Source: Streptomyces celluloflavus
GTDB taxonomy: Bacteria > Actinomycetota > Actinomycetes > Streptomycetales > Streptomycetaceae
Length of the DNA: 39,901 nt
Assembly (NCBI GenBank): GCA_000720995.1
Contig: JOEL01000058.1
Span: forward strand, 1 to 39,901
Direction of reading: 5' to 3'
Numbering within the stretch: position 1 is the stretch's first letter; each line of letters opens with the position of its first letter. The notes under the pieces were generated by a model. That model saw only the letters and a list, made by a program, of their open reading frames with translations, did not search any database and was not told where the DNA came from. Positions 15,074 through 17,677 of the stretch are shown here, in pieces. A program made the position numbers and the translations under genes.

Positions 15074-16077
15074 GCCCGCACCTCCTCGGCCAGCGCCAGC
15101 GCCGCACGCGCCATCGCGGCCGTGGCGTCCAGGTCCGTCATCATCAGCGGTACGGCCCGGCAGCGGATACCGGCCGCCTCGACCTCGTCCACCGCGCCGG
15201 CGTCGACGGAGTCGACCAGCCAGCCGTCCAGCAGCCCCGGACCGCCCTCGCGCCGCCCGCCGCCCTCCGCCACGGGACCTCGTTCGGCCCCGCCGTAATG
15301 CAGGGCGACCGCGGCGGCGGTGGACTCGACGCCGACGGCGGCCAGCACCTTGTCGGCCATCCCGCGCACCGGGGTGTCCCCGACGATCGGCGAGAGCCCG
15401 ATCACCGGCACCTCGGTGTCCGCGATGGCCTCGCGGATACCCGGCACGGCCAGGATCGTGCCGATGCTCACCACGGGGTTGGACGGCGGGAAGAGCACCA
15501 GGTCCGCCTCGGCGATGGCCTCCAGCACACCGGGCGCGGGCTTGGCCTGGTCGGCGCCGACCGGCACCACCGCGTGCGCGGGGAGCGAGGCGCGCAGCCG
15601 GACCCAGTACTCCTGGAAGTGGATCGCCTTGCGCTCGCCGTCCTGGTCGACGGCGACATGGGTCTCGACCCGGTCGTCGGACATCGGCAGCAGCCGCACG
15701 CCCGGCTGCCAGCGCGCGCACAGCGCCTCGGTGACGGCGCTCAGCGGATAGCCGGCGCCGAGCATCTGGGTCCGCACGATATGGGTGGCGAAGTCCCGGT
15801 CGCCGAGCCCGAACCACTCGGGCCCGACGCCGTAGGCCGCCAACTCCTCCTTCACGCGGAAGGTTTCGTCGGTACGGCCCCAGCCCTGCTCCTCGTTGAT
15901 GCCGCCGCCGAGCGTGTACATCACGGTGTCGAGGTCGGGACAGACCTTGAGTCCGAACAGATGGATGTCGTCGCCGGTGTTGCCGATGACGGTGATGTCC
16001 GCCTCCGGCGCCGCTGCCTTCAGTCCCCGCAGAAAGCGGGCGCCGCCGATACCGCCGGCCAGAACCACAATGCGCAT
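15070..16077 (-). CDS. fbiA: FbiA, 2-phospho-L-lactate/phosphoenolpyruvate transferase of F420 synthesis
   Basis: FbiA (CofD family) transfers the phospho-lactyl or phosphoenolpyruvyl group from its guanylylated form to the deazaflavin Fo, giving (dehydro-)F420-0. The 335-residue product begins [19 protein letters not shown], the family's nucleotide-binding start, followed by [27 protein letters not shown] and [16 protein letters not shown]. Later come [17 protein letters not shown] and [21 protein letters not shown]. Length is normal. The ATG at 16075-16077 lies just downstream of a repeated 40-bp element. The cysteine dioxygenase gene lies 116 bp upstream on the same strand, so read-through transcription is possible. 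Confidence 0.95.
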
Positions 16078-16082
16078 AAGGA

Positions 16083-16179
16083 CAGTGTGTCAGCCGAAGG
16101 CTGACTCCTTGAGGGGCGGTGGCCGGGCGACGGGAGGGCCAGTGTGTCAGCCGAAGGCTGGCTCCTTGAGGGGCGGTGG
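16083..16179 (-). repeat. Two 40-bp direct repeats between cysteine dioxygenase and fbiA
   Basis: Positions 16083-16122 and 16140-16179 match at 39 of 40 bases, separated by 17 bp. On the coding (minus) strand each copy has CAAGGAG followed by a small stem-loop (CAGCC, TTC, GGCTG). Neither copy is at a start-codon distance for a ribosome site. The repeat fills almost the whole gap, so the second copy is the fbiA leader. Confidence 0.8.
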
Positions 16180-16193
16180 CGGACAGGTACGCG

Positions 16194-16700
16194 TCAGGGC
16201 GCGGCGGTCTCTCTGGTGTCCGCAGCCCGCTGGGAGCTGTGCATCGGCATCTCGGTCAGGCCGGGGAAGTAGATGTGCAGGCTGACGGCGGGCGCCAGGG
16301 CGTCGTTGACGACGTCGTGGACGTAACCGGGGGCGAAGACCCGCTGGGTGCCGGCCCGCAGGGTGTGGTGTGCGGTGCGGGTGCCGGCCGTGACATGTTC
16401 GGTCAACTCGCCTTCCAGGACGGTCAGTACACCGGACGACCGTCCGTGGTCGTGCCGGCCGCTGCCCTGGCCCGGGACCCAGCTGAGCAGCCAGACCTCG
16501 TAGCCGGGGCCGGTGCGCAGCCGGTGGTACCAGCGGGTGGTGGTGTCGTAGCGGACGAGCGGGACCCAGGCGGCGCGGTCGGCGGCGATCGAACGGGCCA
16601 GGCCCGCGAAGCCGGCGACGGTGGCCGGGTGGGCGGGGACGGGCGGCAGCAGGTGCGGGATGGCGAGCGGGTCGCCGGCGATCTGGACGTCGCTGTTCAT
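16194..16700 (-). CDS. Cysteine dioxygenase family protein
   Basis: The enzyme would oxidise cysteine to cysteine sulfinate using a mononuclear Fe(II) cupin. The 168-residue product carries cupin motif 1 [20 protein letters not shown] (the HxH pair plus a later Glu-rich strand) and motif 2 [12 protein letters not shown] with the third histidine; length suits bacterial CDO-type proteins. Thiol specificity (cysteine or 3-mercaptopropionate) cannot be read from sequence. I chose the ATG at 16698-16700, which has GAGGAA about 12 bases upstream; longer in-frame extensions have no family similarity. A Cys-rich micro-ORF with its own promoter lies 149 bp upstream, suggesting cysteine-dependent control. 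fbiA follows on the same strand. Confidence 0.88.
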
Positions 16701-16849
16701 GTGCTTCGAGTTCCTCGGCGGAAGTGCTGGGGTGACGCGAACGGGGTGCGGCACGGCGCGGGGCTGTCCCGGTGGGGAGCGCGGCGCGATGGCGCGGAGC
16801 AGGAGTGCTGCGGGGGTGGTGCGAGCGGAACGGCTGGAGCTCGGTGGCT

Positions 16850-16936
16850 TCAACAGCTGGAACAGCGACAGCGAGCCTGCGCGGCGCAGAGCGACCCGTA
16901 AGCACGGGTCAGTCGGGGCGCGGGAGTCGCTGGCAT
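16850..16936 (-). CDS. Cysteine-rich 28-codon leader peptide (candidate attenuator)
   Basis: The ATG at 16934-16936 opens a 28-codon frame whose last 12 codons include four cysteines (SLCAAQARCRCSSC) just before TGA. It has no Shine-Dalgarno site, but a promoter is placed so that transcription would start at or one base before the ATG, making it leaderless. It lies upstream of the cysteine dioxygenase gene on the same strand. Leaderless polycysteine sORFs are known cysteine-responsive attenuators in mycobacteria; the analogy is by layout, not homology. GTTCCgcTCG (16822-16831, minus strand) just after the stop could pair with CGAGGAAC (16710-16717) at the dioxygenase ribosome site. Confidence 0.6.
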   Translation of the reverse strand: MPATPAPRLTRAYGSLCAAQARCRCSSC

Positions 16937-16943
16937 GCGGTCA

Positions 16944-16972
16944 AGCAGACCGGGTCCATGGCGCAATGTCAA
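16944..16972 (-). promoter_or_regulatory. Promoter of the Cys-leader and cysteine dioxygenase
   Basis: TTGACA (16967-16972) and TCTGCT (16944-16949) on the minus strand are exactly 17 bp apart. The -10 ends seven bases before the leader ATG. The -35 is consensus; the -10 is weak at its second base. Confidence 0.55.
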
Positions 16973-17185
16973 CCGGATGTCGCGTTTGCGGCAAATGATT
17001 CACCTCATCCGGTTACTGTCATAGGCGAAAGGTTTGTGCAGTCGTTGACCAGGAGAAGTCGCCCAGCATCGGCGTTCCCAAACGCCGTTGCGGACCTGTG
17101 ACCCGTCTGTGATCTTCCCCGCTTCGGCGGGCGGGGTGCAACGGGTGGGGCGCGTGGTCGCGTCTCGGTGAGTGAGAAGCGAGTG

Positions 17186-17220
17186 CCGGGTGATGCACCC
17201 GGGGAAGTGTCCGGGTTTTT
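17186..17220 (+). promoter_or_regulatory. Mutually exclusive hairpins with a T-tract upstream of whiB
   Basis: CCGGGTG (17186-17192) can pair with CACCCGG (17196-17202). Alternatively ACCCGG (17197-17202) can pair with CCGGGT (17211-17216), which is followed by TTTT. The second is a Rho-independent terminator shape with a T-tract, unusual in such GC-rich DNA. The first would prevent it. Upstream, CCCGC-TTCG-GCGGG (17118-17131) is another short hairpin. This could be an attenuator or simply the end of an unannotated upstream transcript. Confidence 0.45.
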
Positions 17221-17248
17221 GGTGATTTGAACACTTTCCGCATAGGCT
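17219..17248 (+). promoter_or_regulatory. Candidate distal whiB promoter
   Basis: TTGGTG (17219-17224) and TAGGCT (17243-17248) are 18 bp apart, giving a leader of about 160 nt before whiB. Confidence 0.4.
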
Positions 17249-17291
17249 TGGTTCCGCAGAGTGAATAAGAGGCTCAATAGCAGATCTCGGC

Positions 17292-17321
17292 TTGACTGGC
17301 CCGGATCGGCACACTTGTAAT
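17292..17321 (+). promoter_or_regulatory. Candidate proximal whiB promoter
   Basis: TTGACT (17292-17297) and TGTAAT (17316-17321) are 18 bp apart, predicting a leader of about 85 nt that includes the 20-bp tandem duplication. S. coelicolor whiB is known to have more than one promoter. Confidence 0.5.
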
Positions 17322-17361
17322 TTCACTCGTGTCGTTCAGCCGTTATCGATCACGGCGAGAT

Positions 17362-17401
17362 CACGGGGACGTCAAGACAGACACGGGGACGTCAAGACAG
17401 A
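17362..17401 (+). repeat. Perfect 20-bp tandem duplication in the whiB leader
   Basis: CACGGGGACGTCAAGACAGA occurs twice head to tail, ending one base before the GAGGGG ribosome site of whiB. It should be transcribed in the 5' UTR. Confidence 0.9.
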
Positions 17402-17413
17402 CGAGGGGCGCAC

Positions 17414-17677
17414 ATGACCGAGCTGTTCGAGGAATTGCTGGTCGAAGAGGCGGACGAGGAGCTCGGCTGGCAGGAGCGCGCACTGTGCGCCCAGACCGAT
17501 CCCGAATCCTTCTTCCCGGAGAAGGGCGGCTCCACCCGCGAGGCGAAGAAGGTCTGCCTCGCCTGTGAGGTCCGCTCCGAGTGCCTGGAATACGCCCTCG
17601 CCAACGACGAGCGCTTCGGTATCTGGGGCGGCCTGTCCGAGCGCGAGCGGCGCCGGCTGAAGAAGGCCGCCGTCTGA
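17414..17677 (+). CDS. whiB: WhiB, iron-sulfur sporulation transcription regulator
   Basis: WhiB works with WhiA to stop aerial growth and start sporulation septation in Streptomyces; it binds a redox- and NO-sensitive [4Fe-4S] cluster and associates with the primary sigma factor. The 87-residue product has the four ligand cysteines C25, C48, C51 and C57 (CLAC and SEC context), the FGIWGGLSERERRRLKK turn and basic C-terminus. From ELGWQERALC onward it matches my memory of S. coelicolor WhiB, while the first residues differ. ATG at 17414 with GAGGGG five bases upstream. It is monocistronic, with a strong terminator about 86 bp downstream. Orthologue of mycobacterial whiB2, which also lies next to fbiA. 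Confidence 0.96.
   Translation: MTELFEELLVEEADEELGWQERALCAQTDPESFFPEKGGSTREAKKVCLACEVRSECLEYALANDERFGIWGGLSERERRRLKKAAV

Follow-up and report, generated by a model that had tools for sequence, protein, structure and literature searches.

The window, a 39,901-nucleotide stretch of Streptomyces celluloflavus DNA (contig JOEL01000058.1), carries a gene of the cysteine-dioxygenase type preceded by a short, cysteine-rich open reading frame, here termed the micro-ORF. The features in and upstream of this gene are listed below in window coordinates.

16194..16700, minus strand: cysteine-dioxygenase-type gene (PF05995), 168 codons plus stop, Pfam score 68.4 bits against a cut-off of 23; its ATG begins at 16700
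16710..16717, minus strand: CGAGGAAC, ribosome-binding site of the dioxygenase gene, assigned from sequence
16850..16936, minus strand: micro-ORF, 28 codons plus TGA, with a Cys-rich carboxyl terminus, probably leaderless (open reading frame, alignment, and profile)
16944..16949, minus strand: TCTGCT, a weak −10-like hexamer
16967..16972, minus strand: TTGACA, the −35 hexamer
16995..17014, minus strand: conserved block AACCGGATGAGGTGAATCAT (locus alignment)
17024..17038, minus strand: conserved block CACAAACCTTTCGCC (locus alignment)
17414-17677, plus strand: WhiB-family gene (PF02467), divergent, upstream of the dioxygenase gene

The gene following the dioxygenase on the minus strand is cofD (PF01933). 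Between the two, at 16100-16179, lie two copies of a near-identical repeat, CCACCGCCCCTCAAGGAG(C/T)CAGC.

The comparison drew on 110 loci with 107 distinct sequences. Thirty, among them the locus of the window, come from the same genus; the other 80 are the best-ranked of a set of 393. Excluded were L001-L003, which are other dioxygenases of the window genome or a duplicate of L004. Pairing tests used 106 loci, leaving out L073, which has no recognisable start; the alignment has 104 rows, leaving out also the two loci with micro-ORFs of 49-50 codons (L085 and L099). All of these loci are related, so locus counts are not counts of independent events. Gene order is kept throughout: cofD lies downstream at 110/110 loci, and the divergent whiB gene lies upstream at 109/110, the sole locus outside the whiB count (L035) being on a contig that ends first.

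By sequence, the dioxygenase gene product is a member of PF05995 with conserved thiol-dioxygenase residues. Eight positions (Y58, R60, H83, H85, H128, S140, H142, and Y144) are each retained in 105 or more of the 106 orthologues; these we take, with their roles, to be the residues expected of a thiol dioxygenase. The Ser-His-Tyr triad of such enzymes is treated in passages of PMC10966181. The protein is distant by sequence from all PDB chains, the nearest being 8qfr (E 1.8e-9). Two other PF05995 matches occur in the window genome (8.68 Mb assembly). We treat it as a putative cysteine dioxygenase, with free L-cysteine as a possible substrate.

The micro-ORF, MPATPAPRLTRAYGSLCAAQARCRCSSC, runs on the minus strand from an ATG at 16936 to a TGA that ends at 16850, leaving 149 nt between its stop and the dioxygenase ATG. 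Cys accounts for four of its final 12 codons. Upstream, 17 nt separate TTGACA from TCTGCT, and 7 nt separate TCTGCT from the ATG. The preliminary description had listed the −35 hexamer, the 17-nt spacer, the 28-codon frame, the four Cys codons, and the distance to the gene, all of which were confirmed. Such a combination is rare in the window, which has 597 ATG or GTG starts with frames 12-60 codons long. A single one carries four or more Cys in its final 12 codons, and a single one follows TTGACA placed at −38 to −30; in both cases this is the micro-ORF. Rfam returned nothing up to E 1 for 16000-17420; the peptide matched nothing in NCBIfam or Pfam; and the window micro-ORF plus five homologues were without a match to the leader-peptide profiles NF042933 and NF042934 at E up to 10.

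Conservation of the frame and its Cys codons among streptomycetes, proposed in the preliminary description as a check, holds at every locus compared. At 110/110 loci the distance from TTGACA to an ATG is exactly 36 or 37 nt, and the frame begun by that ATG has a Cys-rich tail (at least two Cys in the final 14 residues). Each micro-ORF has three to seven Cys, and all 107 distinct ones have at least three in the final 14 residues and end in TGA. Around these fixed points much else varies: 13 lengths are found, from 28 to 50 codons; the amino-terminal half is variable while the carboxyl terminus is conserved; and the spacer between stop and gene ranges from 51 to 278 nt, with little conserved sequence. 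These comparisons confirm the micro-ORF as a genuine feature whose reading frame is conserved.

Of 37 same-genus genomes, the window's own among them, 35 yield the micro-ORF at E<1e-4 with a profile built from 40 micro-ORF peptides (A1); several of the 37 had supplied rows of the profile. In G006 it appears at the correct position with E 0.16, and in G010 the stretch upstream of the dioxygenase is masked. Across 24 genomes outside the genus, nothing fell below E 6.5e-4. One genome (G012, locus L153, G012:C1:4954500-4957500) keeps the micro-ORF although the dioxygenase beside it can no longer be recognised; a further dioxygenase copy, L154, lies 3.65 Mb off, with no TTGACA/ATG micro-ORF in the flank examined. 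The G008 contig stops within the dioxygenase.

Conservation in frame bears on an alternative in which the locus holds an untranslated RNA or DNA element and the open frame is incidental. Strong nucleotide-level conservation, together with the structures described below, would suit such an element; 13 ORF lengths, all of which hold one frame through the invariant ATG, the Cys run, and the TGA, would not, and we regard the idea as very improbable.

How is the micro-ORF read? A Shine-Dalgarno-like 4-mer precedes the dioxygenase start at 103/104 loci and the micro-ORF at 1/104, and the latter count favours leaderless initiation. The alternation of spacing between 36 and 37 nt shifts any upstream frame, so the start is taken to be the ATG and not an upstream TTG. 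Spacing and the missing Shine-Dalgarno sequence thus make a leaderless micro-ORF likely. The preliminary description had gone further, using the promoter to place the transcript start at the ATG. The TTGACA half of that argument stands at 110/110 loci; the −10 half is weak. TCTGCT is without the A of the streptomycete TAnnnT motif and is absent from the output of a consensus promoter scan. Among the 107 distinct loci the −13 to −8 hexamer is TCTCCT in 37, TGTCCT in 29, CACCTT in 24, and TAnnnT in none, although T at −8 and C at −1 are invariant. In Streptomyces lividans the A of TAnnnT is present in 94.5% of leaderless promoters (PMC8079986, in part). The micro-ORF promoter is thus unusual, and perhaps activator-dependent. 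(A promoter that the scan did list, ATGACA-16-AATCAT at 17022-16995 on the minus strand, is kept in 1/107 loci and was rejected.)

Upstream of the −35 hexamer, in the interval between the micro-ORF and whiB, window positions 16995-17038 hold two strongly conserved blocks (AACCGGATGAGGTGAA and CACAAACCTTTC). These are possible regulator sites for the dioxygenase-side gene or for whiB; the block at 16995..17014 could be an operator or a piece of the divergent whiB promoter.

The Cys codons are themselves antisense to the dioxygenase translation start. The window leader fold pairs the Cys run with the start region, and two further hairpins flank the run.

16688..16698, minus strand: GAACAGCGACG, the start-codon region, partner of the Cys run (leader fold, helix and pair counts)
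16832..16858, minus strand: predicted hairpin around the micro-ORF stop, using GCUCCAGC downstream of the UGA (consensus fold, pair counts)
16860..16870, minus strand: UGUCGCUGUUC, the Cys-codon run, or anti-start (folds, helix counts)
16894..16909, minus strand: predicted hairpin ACCCGU-GCUU-ACGGGU, inside the micro-ORF and ahead of the Cys run (pair counts, consensus fold)

This complementarity extends across the compared loci. The longest unbroken helix between run and start measures 7-16 bp at the 106 loci, and 1933 of 112,822 control windows, taken elsewhere in these loci, are as good; the helix falls in the top 5% for its own locus at 98/106 and in the top 1% at 70/106. Minimum-energy folds of whole leaders contain the pairing at 96/106 loci. 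When the tail was recoded synonymously, the pairing was present in 95/530 cases; after shuffling of codon order, in 275/530. RNAalifold consensus structures for a random 40 loci and for three clades each include the start helix along with both hairpins, in alignments from which the unconserved middle of the leader had been cut, which eases formation of a long-range helix; the locus folds used whole leaders. Two measures gave no signal. By duplex energy the start region is not singled out among GC-rich windows (15685/47015 were as good), and micro-ORFs and starts from matched clades pair no better than those from mismatched ones.

Codon choice supplies an independent view. Micro-ORF Cys codons are TGT in 403 cases and TGC in 124 (527 in all), whereas TGT is rare in the dioxygenase bodies (2 TGT against 86 TGC). 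The preference depends on position. By codon-alignment column, in counts made without reference to pairing, TGT:TGC is 101:2 at column 57, 30:0 at column 59, and 101:2 at column 65, but 1:17 and 5:37 at the intervening columns 58 and 64. This alternation is what pairing with GAC-AGC-GAC/AAC needs: U opposite A, and C opposite G. (An earlier tally of TGT and TGC against the partner base inside the helix was dropped in favour of the column counts, being partly circular, since the helix cannot hold C opposite A.) TGT also prevails, 101:5, at the last Cys, which lies outside the helix; slow decoding may therefore matter too.

Covariation at this helix is real but thin, as far as the aligned sequences go. 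One locus, L087, shows a clear double change, with start AACAACGAC and TGT replacing TGC. Among the MNMDSD loci, an A-U pair has become G-C in 10 of 12, those 10 being related. At 10 other loci the run has changed and the start has not, breaking that pair. The sparseness follows from the dioxygenase side, which hardly varies. Pair counts were made in the best register for each locus, a choice that favours pairing.

The inner hairpin, counted at 103 loci (56 distinct segments), has up to 6 bp. In the 56 distinct segments the fifth pair is always intact, as G-C 41 times and as A-U 15 times; overall pairing is 87%, against a maximum of 83% in 500 shuffles. The hairpin around the stop, for which pairs were counted at 76 loci, uses an element, GCTCC[AGC]GC, found near the stop at 88/104 loci (9 nt past it in 61) and in 42/2080 control windows.

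This degree of constraint on codons bears on the notion that the function resides in the peptide, either a small protein that binds metals or thiols or an arrest peptide sensing something other than Cys-tRNA. The Cys-rich conserved carboxyl terminus would be in keeping with such a role, as would the invariant Ala and nearly invariant Gly of the 40 peptides; the variable amino-terminal half and a codon choice constrained beyond the peptide argue against it and leave it quite improbable.

What would a stalled ribosome do to this leader? Masking the Cys run in the folds, as a mimic of a stalled ribosome, lowered mean pairing of the start region from 0.77 to 0.50 over the 106 loci, with a drop exceeding 0.2 at 69 of them and a rise at 2. 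The effect is partial: the start region is still 0.50 paired, and the Shine-Dalgarno stretch is not freed (0.46 before, 0.49 after).

These features suggest a cysteine-responsive translational attenuator that turns the dioxygenase ON when cysteine is scarce, a reading to which we assign a probability of about 70%. Transcription would start at or beside the micro-ORF ATG, and ribosomes would read the micro-ORF as a leaderless frame, as its spacing implies. With plentiful Cys-tRNA, ribosomes would pass the Cys codons and depart; UGUCGCUGUUC would then pair with GAACAGCGACG, the stop hairpin sitting inside the loop of the predicted structure, and the paired start would be poorly translated. When Cys-tRNA is short, a ribosome would stall on the Cys codons and cover the run, presumably freeing the start so that dioxygenase is made. 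Sensor codons and antisense strand would thus be identical nucleotides. With the antisense strand occupied by the stalled ribosome and the start released, expression should rise at low cysteine.

The preliminary description had likewise proposed control through access to the dioxygenase translation start, and the conserved pairing of Cys codons with the start, as predicted, backs that part. It had placed the critical pairing elsewhere, between GTTCCgcTCG, after the micro-ORF stop, and CGAGGAAC. That segment occurs at 1/106 loci, the one in this genome, and the idea was abandoned; in the window, GTTCCGCTCG (16822-16831) fits CGAGGAAC only with a 2-nt bulge. With this pairing came the opposite sign: stalling at low cysteine would turn the dioxygenase OFF, through the anti-Shine-Dalgarno segment or through loss of transcription, and cysteine would be oxidised only when plentiful. 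For a catabolic enzyme behind a Cys-rich leader ORF this has metabolic logic. It is nonetheless unlikely, given the restriction of the anti-Shine-Dalgarno segment to a single locus, a conserved anti-start within the very codons that a stalled ribosome would open, and the expression data that follow, which, with the anti-start, point to the reverse sign.

In Streptomyces coelicolor, SCO3035 adjoins whiB (SCO3034), and since whiB and cofD flank the dioxygenase at 109 and 110 of 110 loci, respectively, SCO3035 is the positional orthologue. Passages of PMC4991794 place SCO3035 among 28 genes induced by H2O2 (6.54-fold, by RNA-seq), in a table that also holds cysNDC, cysH, cysI, cysM, cysA, ssuABC, and methionine transport genes. 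Co-induction with cysteine-biosynthesis genes fits the proposal that the dioxygenase is ON at low cysteine and speaks against its being OFF. The induction was seen at the RNA level, after H2O2, and needs HbpS-SenS-SenR (PMC4991794, same passages), so it is no proof of attenuation.

A further alternative is transcription attenuation, in which translation of the micro-ORF would govern termination, whether Rho-dependent or intrinsic, within the 51-278 nt that separate its stop from the gene. A spacer of variable length and little conserved sequence would suit this, and Rho has been suggested for mycobacterial cys leaders (passages of PMC1262725). Yet the conserved helix reaches the start codon and not a terminator, and in 16100-17420 of the window the coding strand has no terminator-like site, the single one found being on the plus strand at 17197, with no arrangement of the trp type. 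We consider termination control unlikely too, a shade more so than control with the OFF sign.

Translational attenuation with the gene ON at low cysteine remains the preferred account, and it raises a question about the enzyme. A cysteine dioxygenase switched on by cysteine shortage is metabolically odd unless its substrate or role lies in sulfur salvage; the predicted control thus speaks against plain cysteine disposal. Under the preferred account, the dioxygenase would be one member of a set of sulfur genes controlled by cysteine and ON in cysteine shortage.

Other leaders in the same genome are consistent with such a set. Seven places match NF042934 at E 0.0054 or better, four of them over the profile cut-off.

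L132-L138, contigs C56, C19, C13, C1, C10, C2, and C11: Cys-bearing leader ORFs of the NF042934 type (profile search)

The same profile was run on 14 control genomes: 10 of these had matches with E values of 10 or less, and no match exceeded the cut-off. The genes that follow NF042934-type leaders are mostly sulfur genes; they encode a cysteine-synthase-like pyridoxal-phosphate enzyme, a PF01077 reductase, a rhodanese, a second dioxygenase, a flavin reductase, a symporter, and a protein read as a permease (its first 90 residues have no Pfam match). Several of these gene types are also co-induced with SCO3035. L132-L138 are therefore offered as a candidate ribosome-read cysteine regulon of this streptomycete.

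The start-pairing rule gave no clear signal at the genome's other Cys leaders: eight loci yielded helices of 5-10 pairs, 4-7 of them Watson-Crick, with gene starts chosen automatically and, at least for L132, wrongly. For the second dioxygenase type, two leaders score above the NF042934 cut-off; in this type, pairing with the ribosome-binding site (7-8 bp) is not above chance, 42/227 and 33/229 windows being as good.

Among dioxygenases outside the streptomycete orthologue group, 3 of 18 stretches (L114, L125, and L129) have a small upstream frame whose last 15 residues include at least three Cys; L130 is masked. The clearest is L114 (G037:C18, coding-strand positions 633-860), from another family, where the related dioxygenase shares 48% identity. 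Its leader encodes a different polycysteine peptide, ending SALCCCLCCRPSL; TTGACA lies 37 nt ahead of the ATG, with a TGTCCT hexamer as in streptomycete loci. Over 9 bp its tail GTCCTTCGC complements the dioxygenase ribosome-binding site GCGAAGGAC perfectly, a fit equalled by 0/232 control windows. To judge from these sequences, L114 is the same design in other letters.

How does the micro-ORF relate to known leaders? Polycysteine leaderless sORFs that act as attenuators in mycobacteria were reportedly described by Canestrari et al. in 2020. That body of work is cited in PMC9031893, PMC9094748, and PMC13236596, and an earlier observation of such sORFs appears in PMC4633059 (all four as seen in passages). 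The common features are a short ORF with spacing of the leaderless type, Cys codons clustered before the stop, a sulfur-metabolism gene downstream, a predicted fold in which the Cys tract takes part and by which the downstream start is concealed, and a stalled ribosome expected to uncover that start. By description, which is the level of this comparison, the micro-ORF differs in its peptide, its genus, its cysteine-dioxygenase-type target, its Cys codons that pair with the start and first codons, and its extra hairpins ahead of the run and around the stop. NF042933 (the Ms5788A family Cys-rich leader peptide) and NF042934 (cis_reg_atten, putative leader peptide) are likewise short Cys-bearing leaders, from which the micro-ORF is set apart by the lack of any profile match noted above.

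The LEU element, upstream of leuA in Actinobacteria, offers a precedent for a run of leader-ORF sensor codons that pairs with the site where translation of the next gene begins; its own features are leucine, leuA, pairing with the Shine-Dalgarno box, and a pseudoknot. The same work predicts Cys-run leaders before the cys operons of mycobacteria and P. acnes and before cbs of B. longum. Like the micro-ORF, these have Cys codons near the stop and no intrinsic terminator; in the relevant passages their targets are biosynthetic, no conserved hairpins were found, and Streptomyces is not among the cysteine cases (all from passages of PMC1262725). Among the matches listed from open-licence literature, none dealt with a cysteine leader at this dioxygenase gene. 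Passages of a reannotation of S. lividans report eight leader peptides, none for cysteine (PMC8079986). One of that organism's leaders, before metN and reported there as methionine-dependent, ends GARCMCRRMCAF. It also carries three Cys codons, and may sense cysteine.

A broader proposal is that Streptomyces has a ribosome-read cysteine regulon with a branch of distinct design, in which a thiol dioxygenase is turned ON as cysteine runs out, the sensor Cys codons double as antisense to its start codon, and TGT and TGC are chosen to match the start. The enzyme would then serve sulfur salvage, oxidising another thiol with release of sulfite, and not the disposal of cysteine. This is offered tentatively, its odds being a little short of even.

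If the attenuator is as proposed, Streptomyces would join the organisms that use cysteine-controlled translational attenuation, with a switch whose layout is unusually easy to read. Cysteine starvation would induce a gene whose annotation is cysteine degradation, a prediction that provides a sharp test of the purpose of the enzyme. Moreover, a choice of Cys codons matched to the start sequence would be a way to find switches of this kind where NF042933 and NF042934 do not match.
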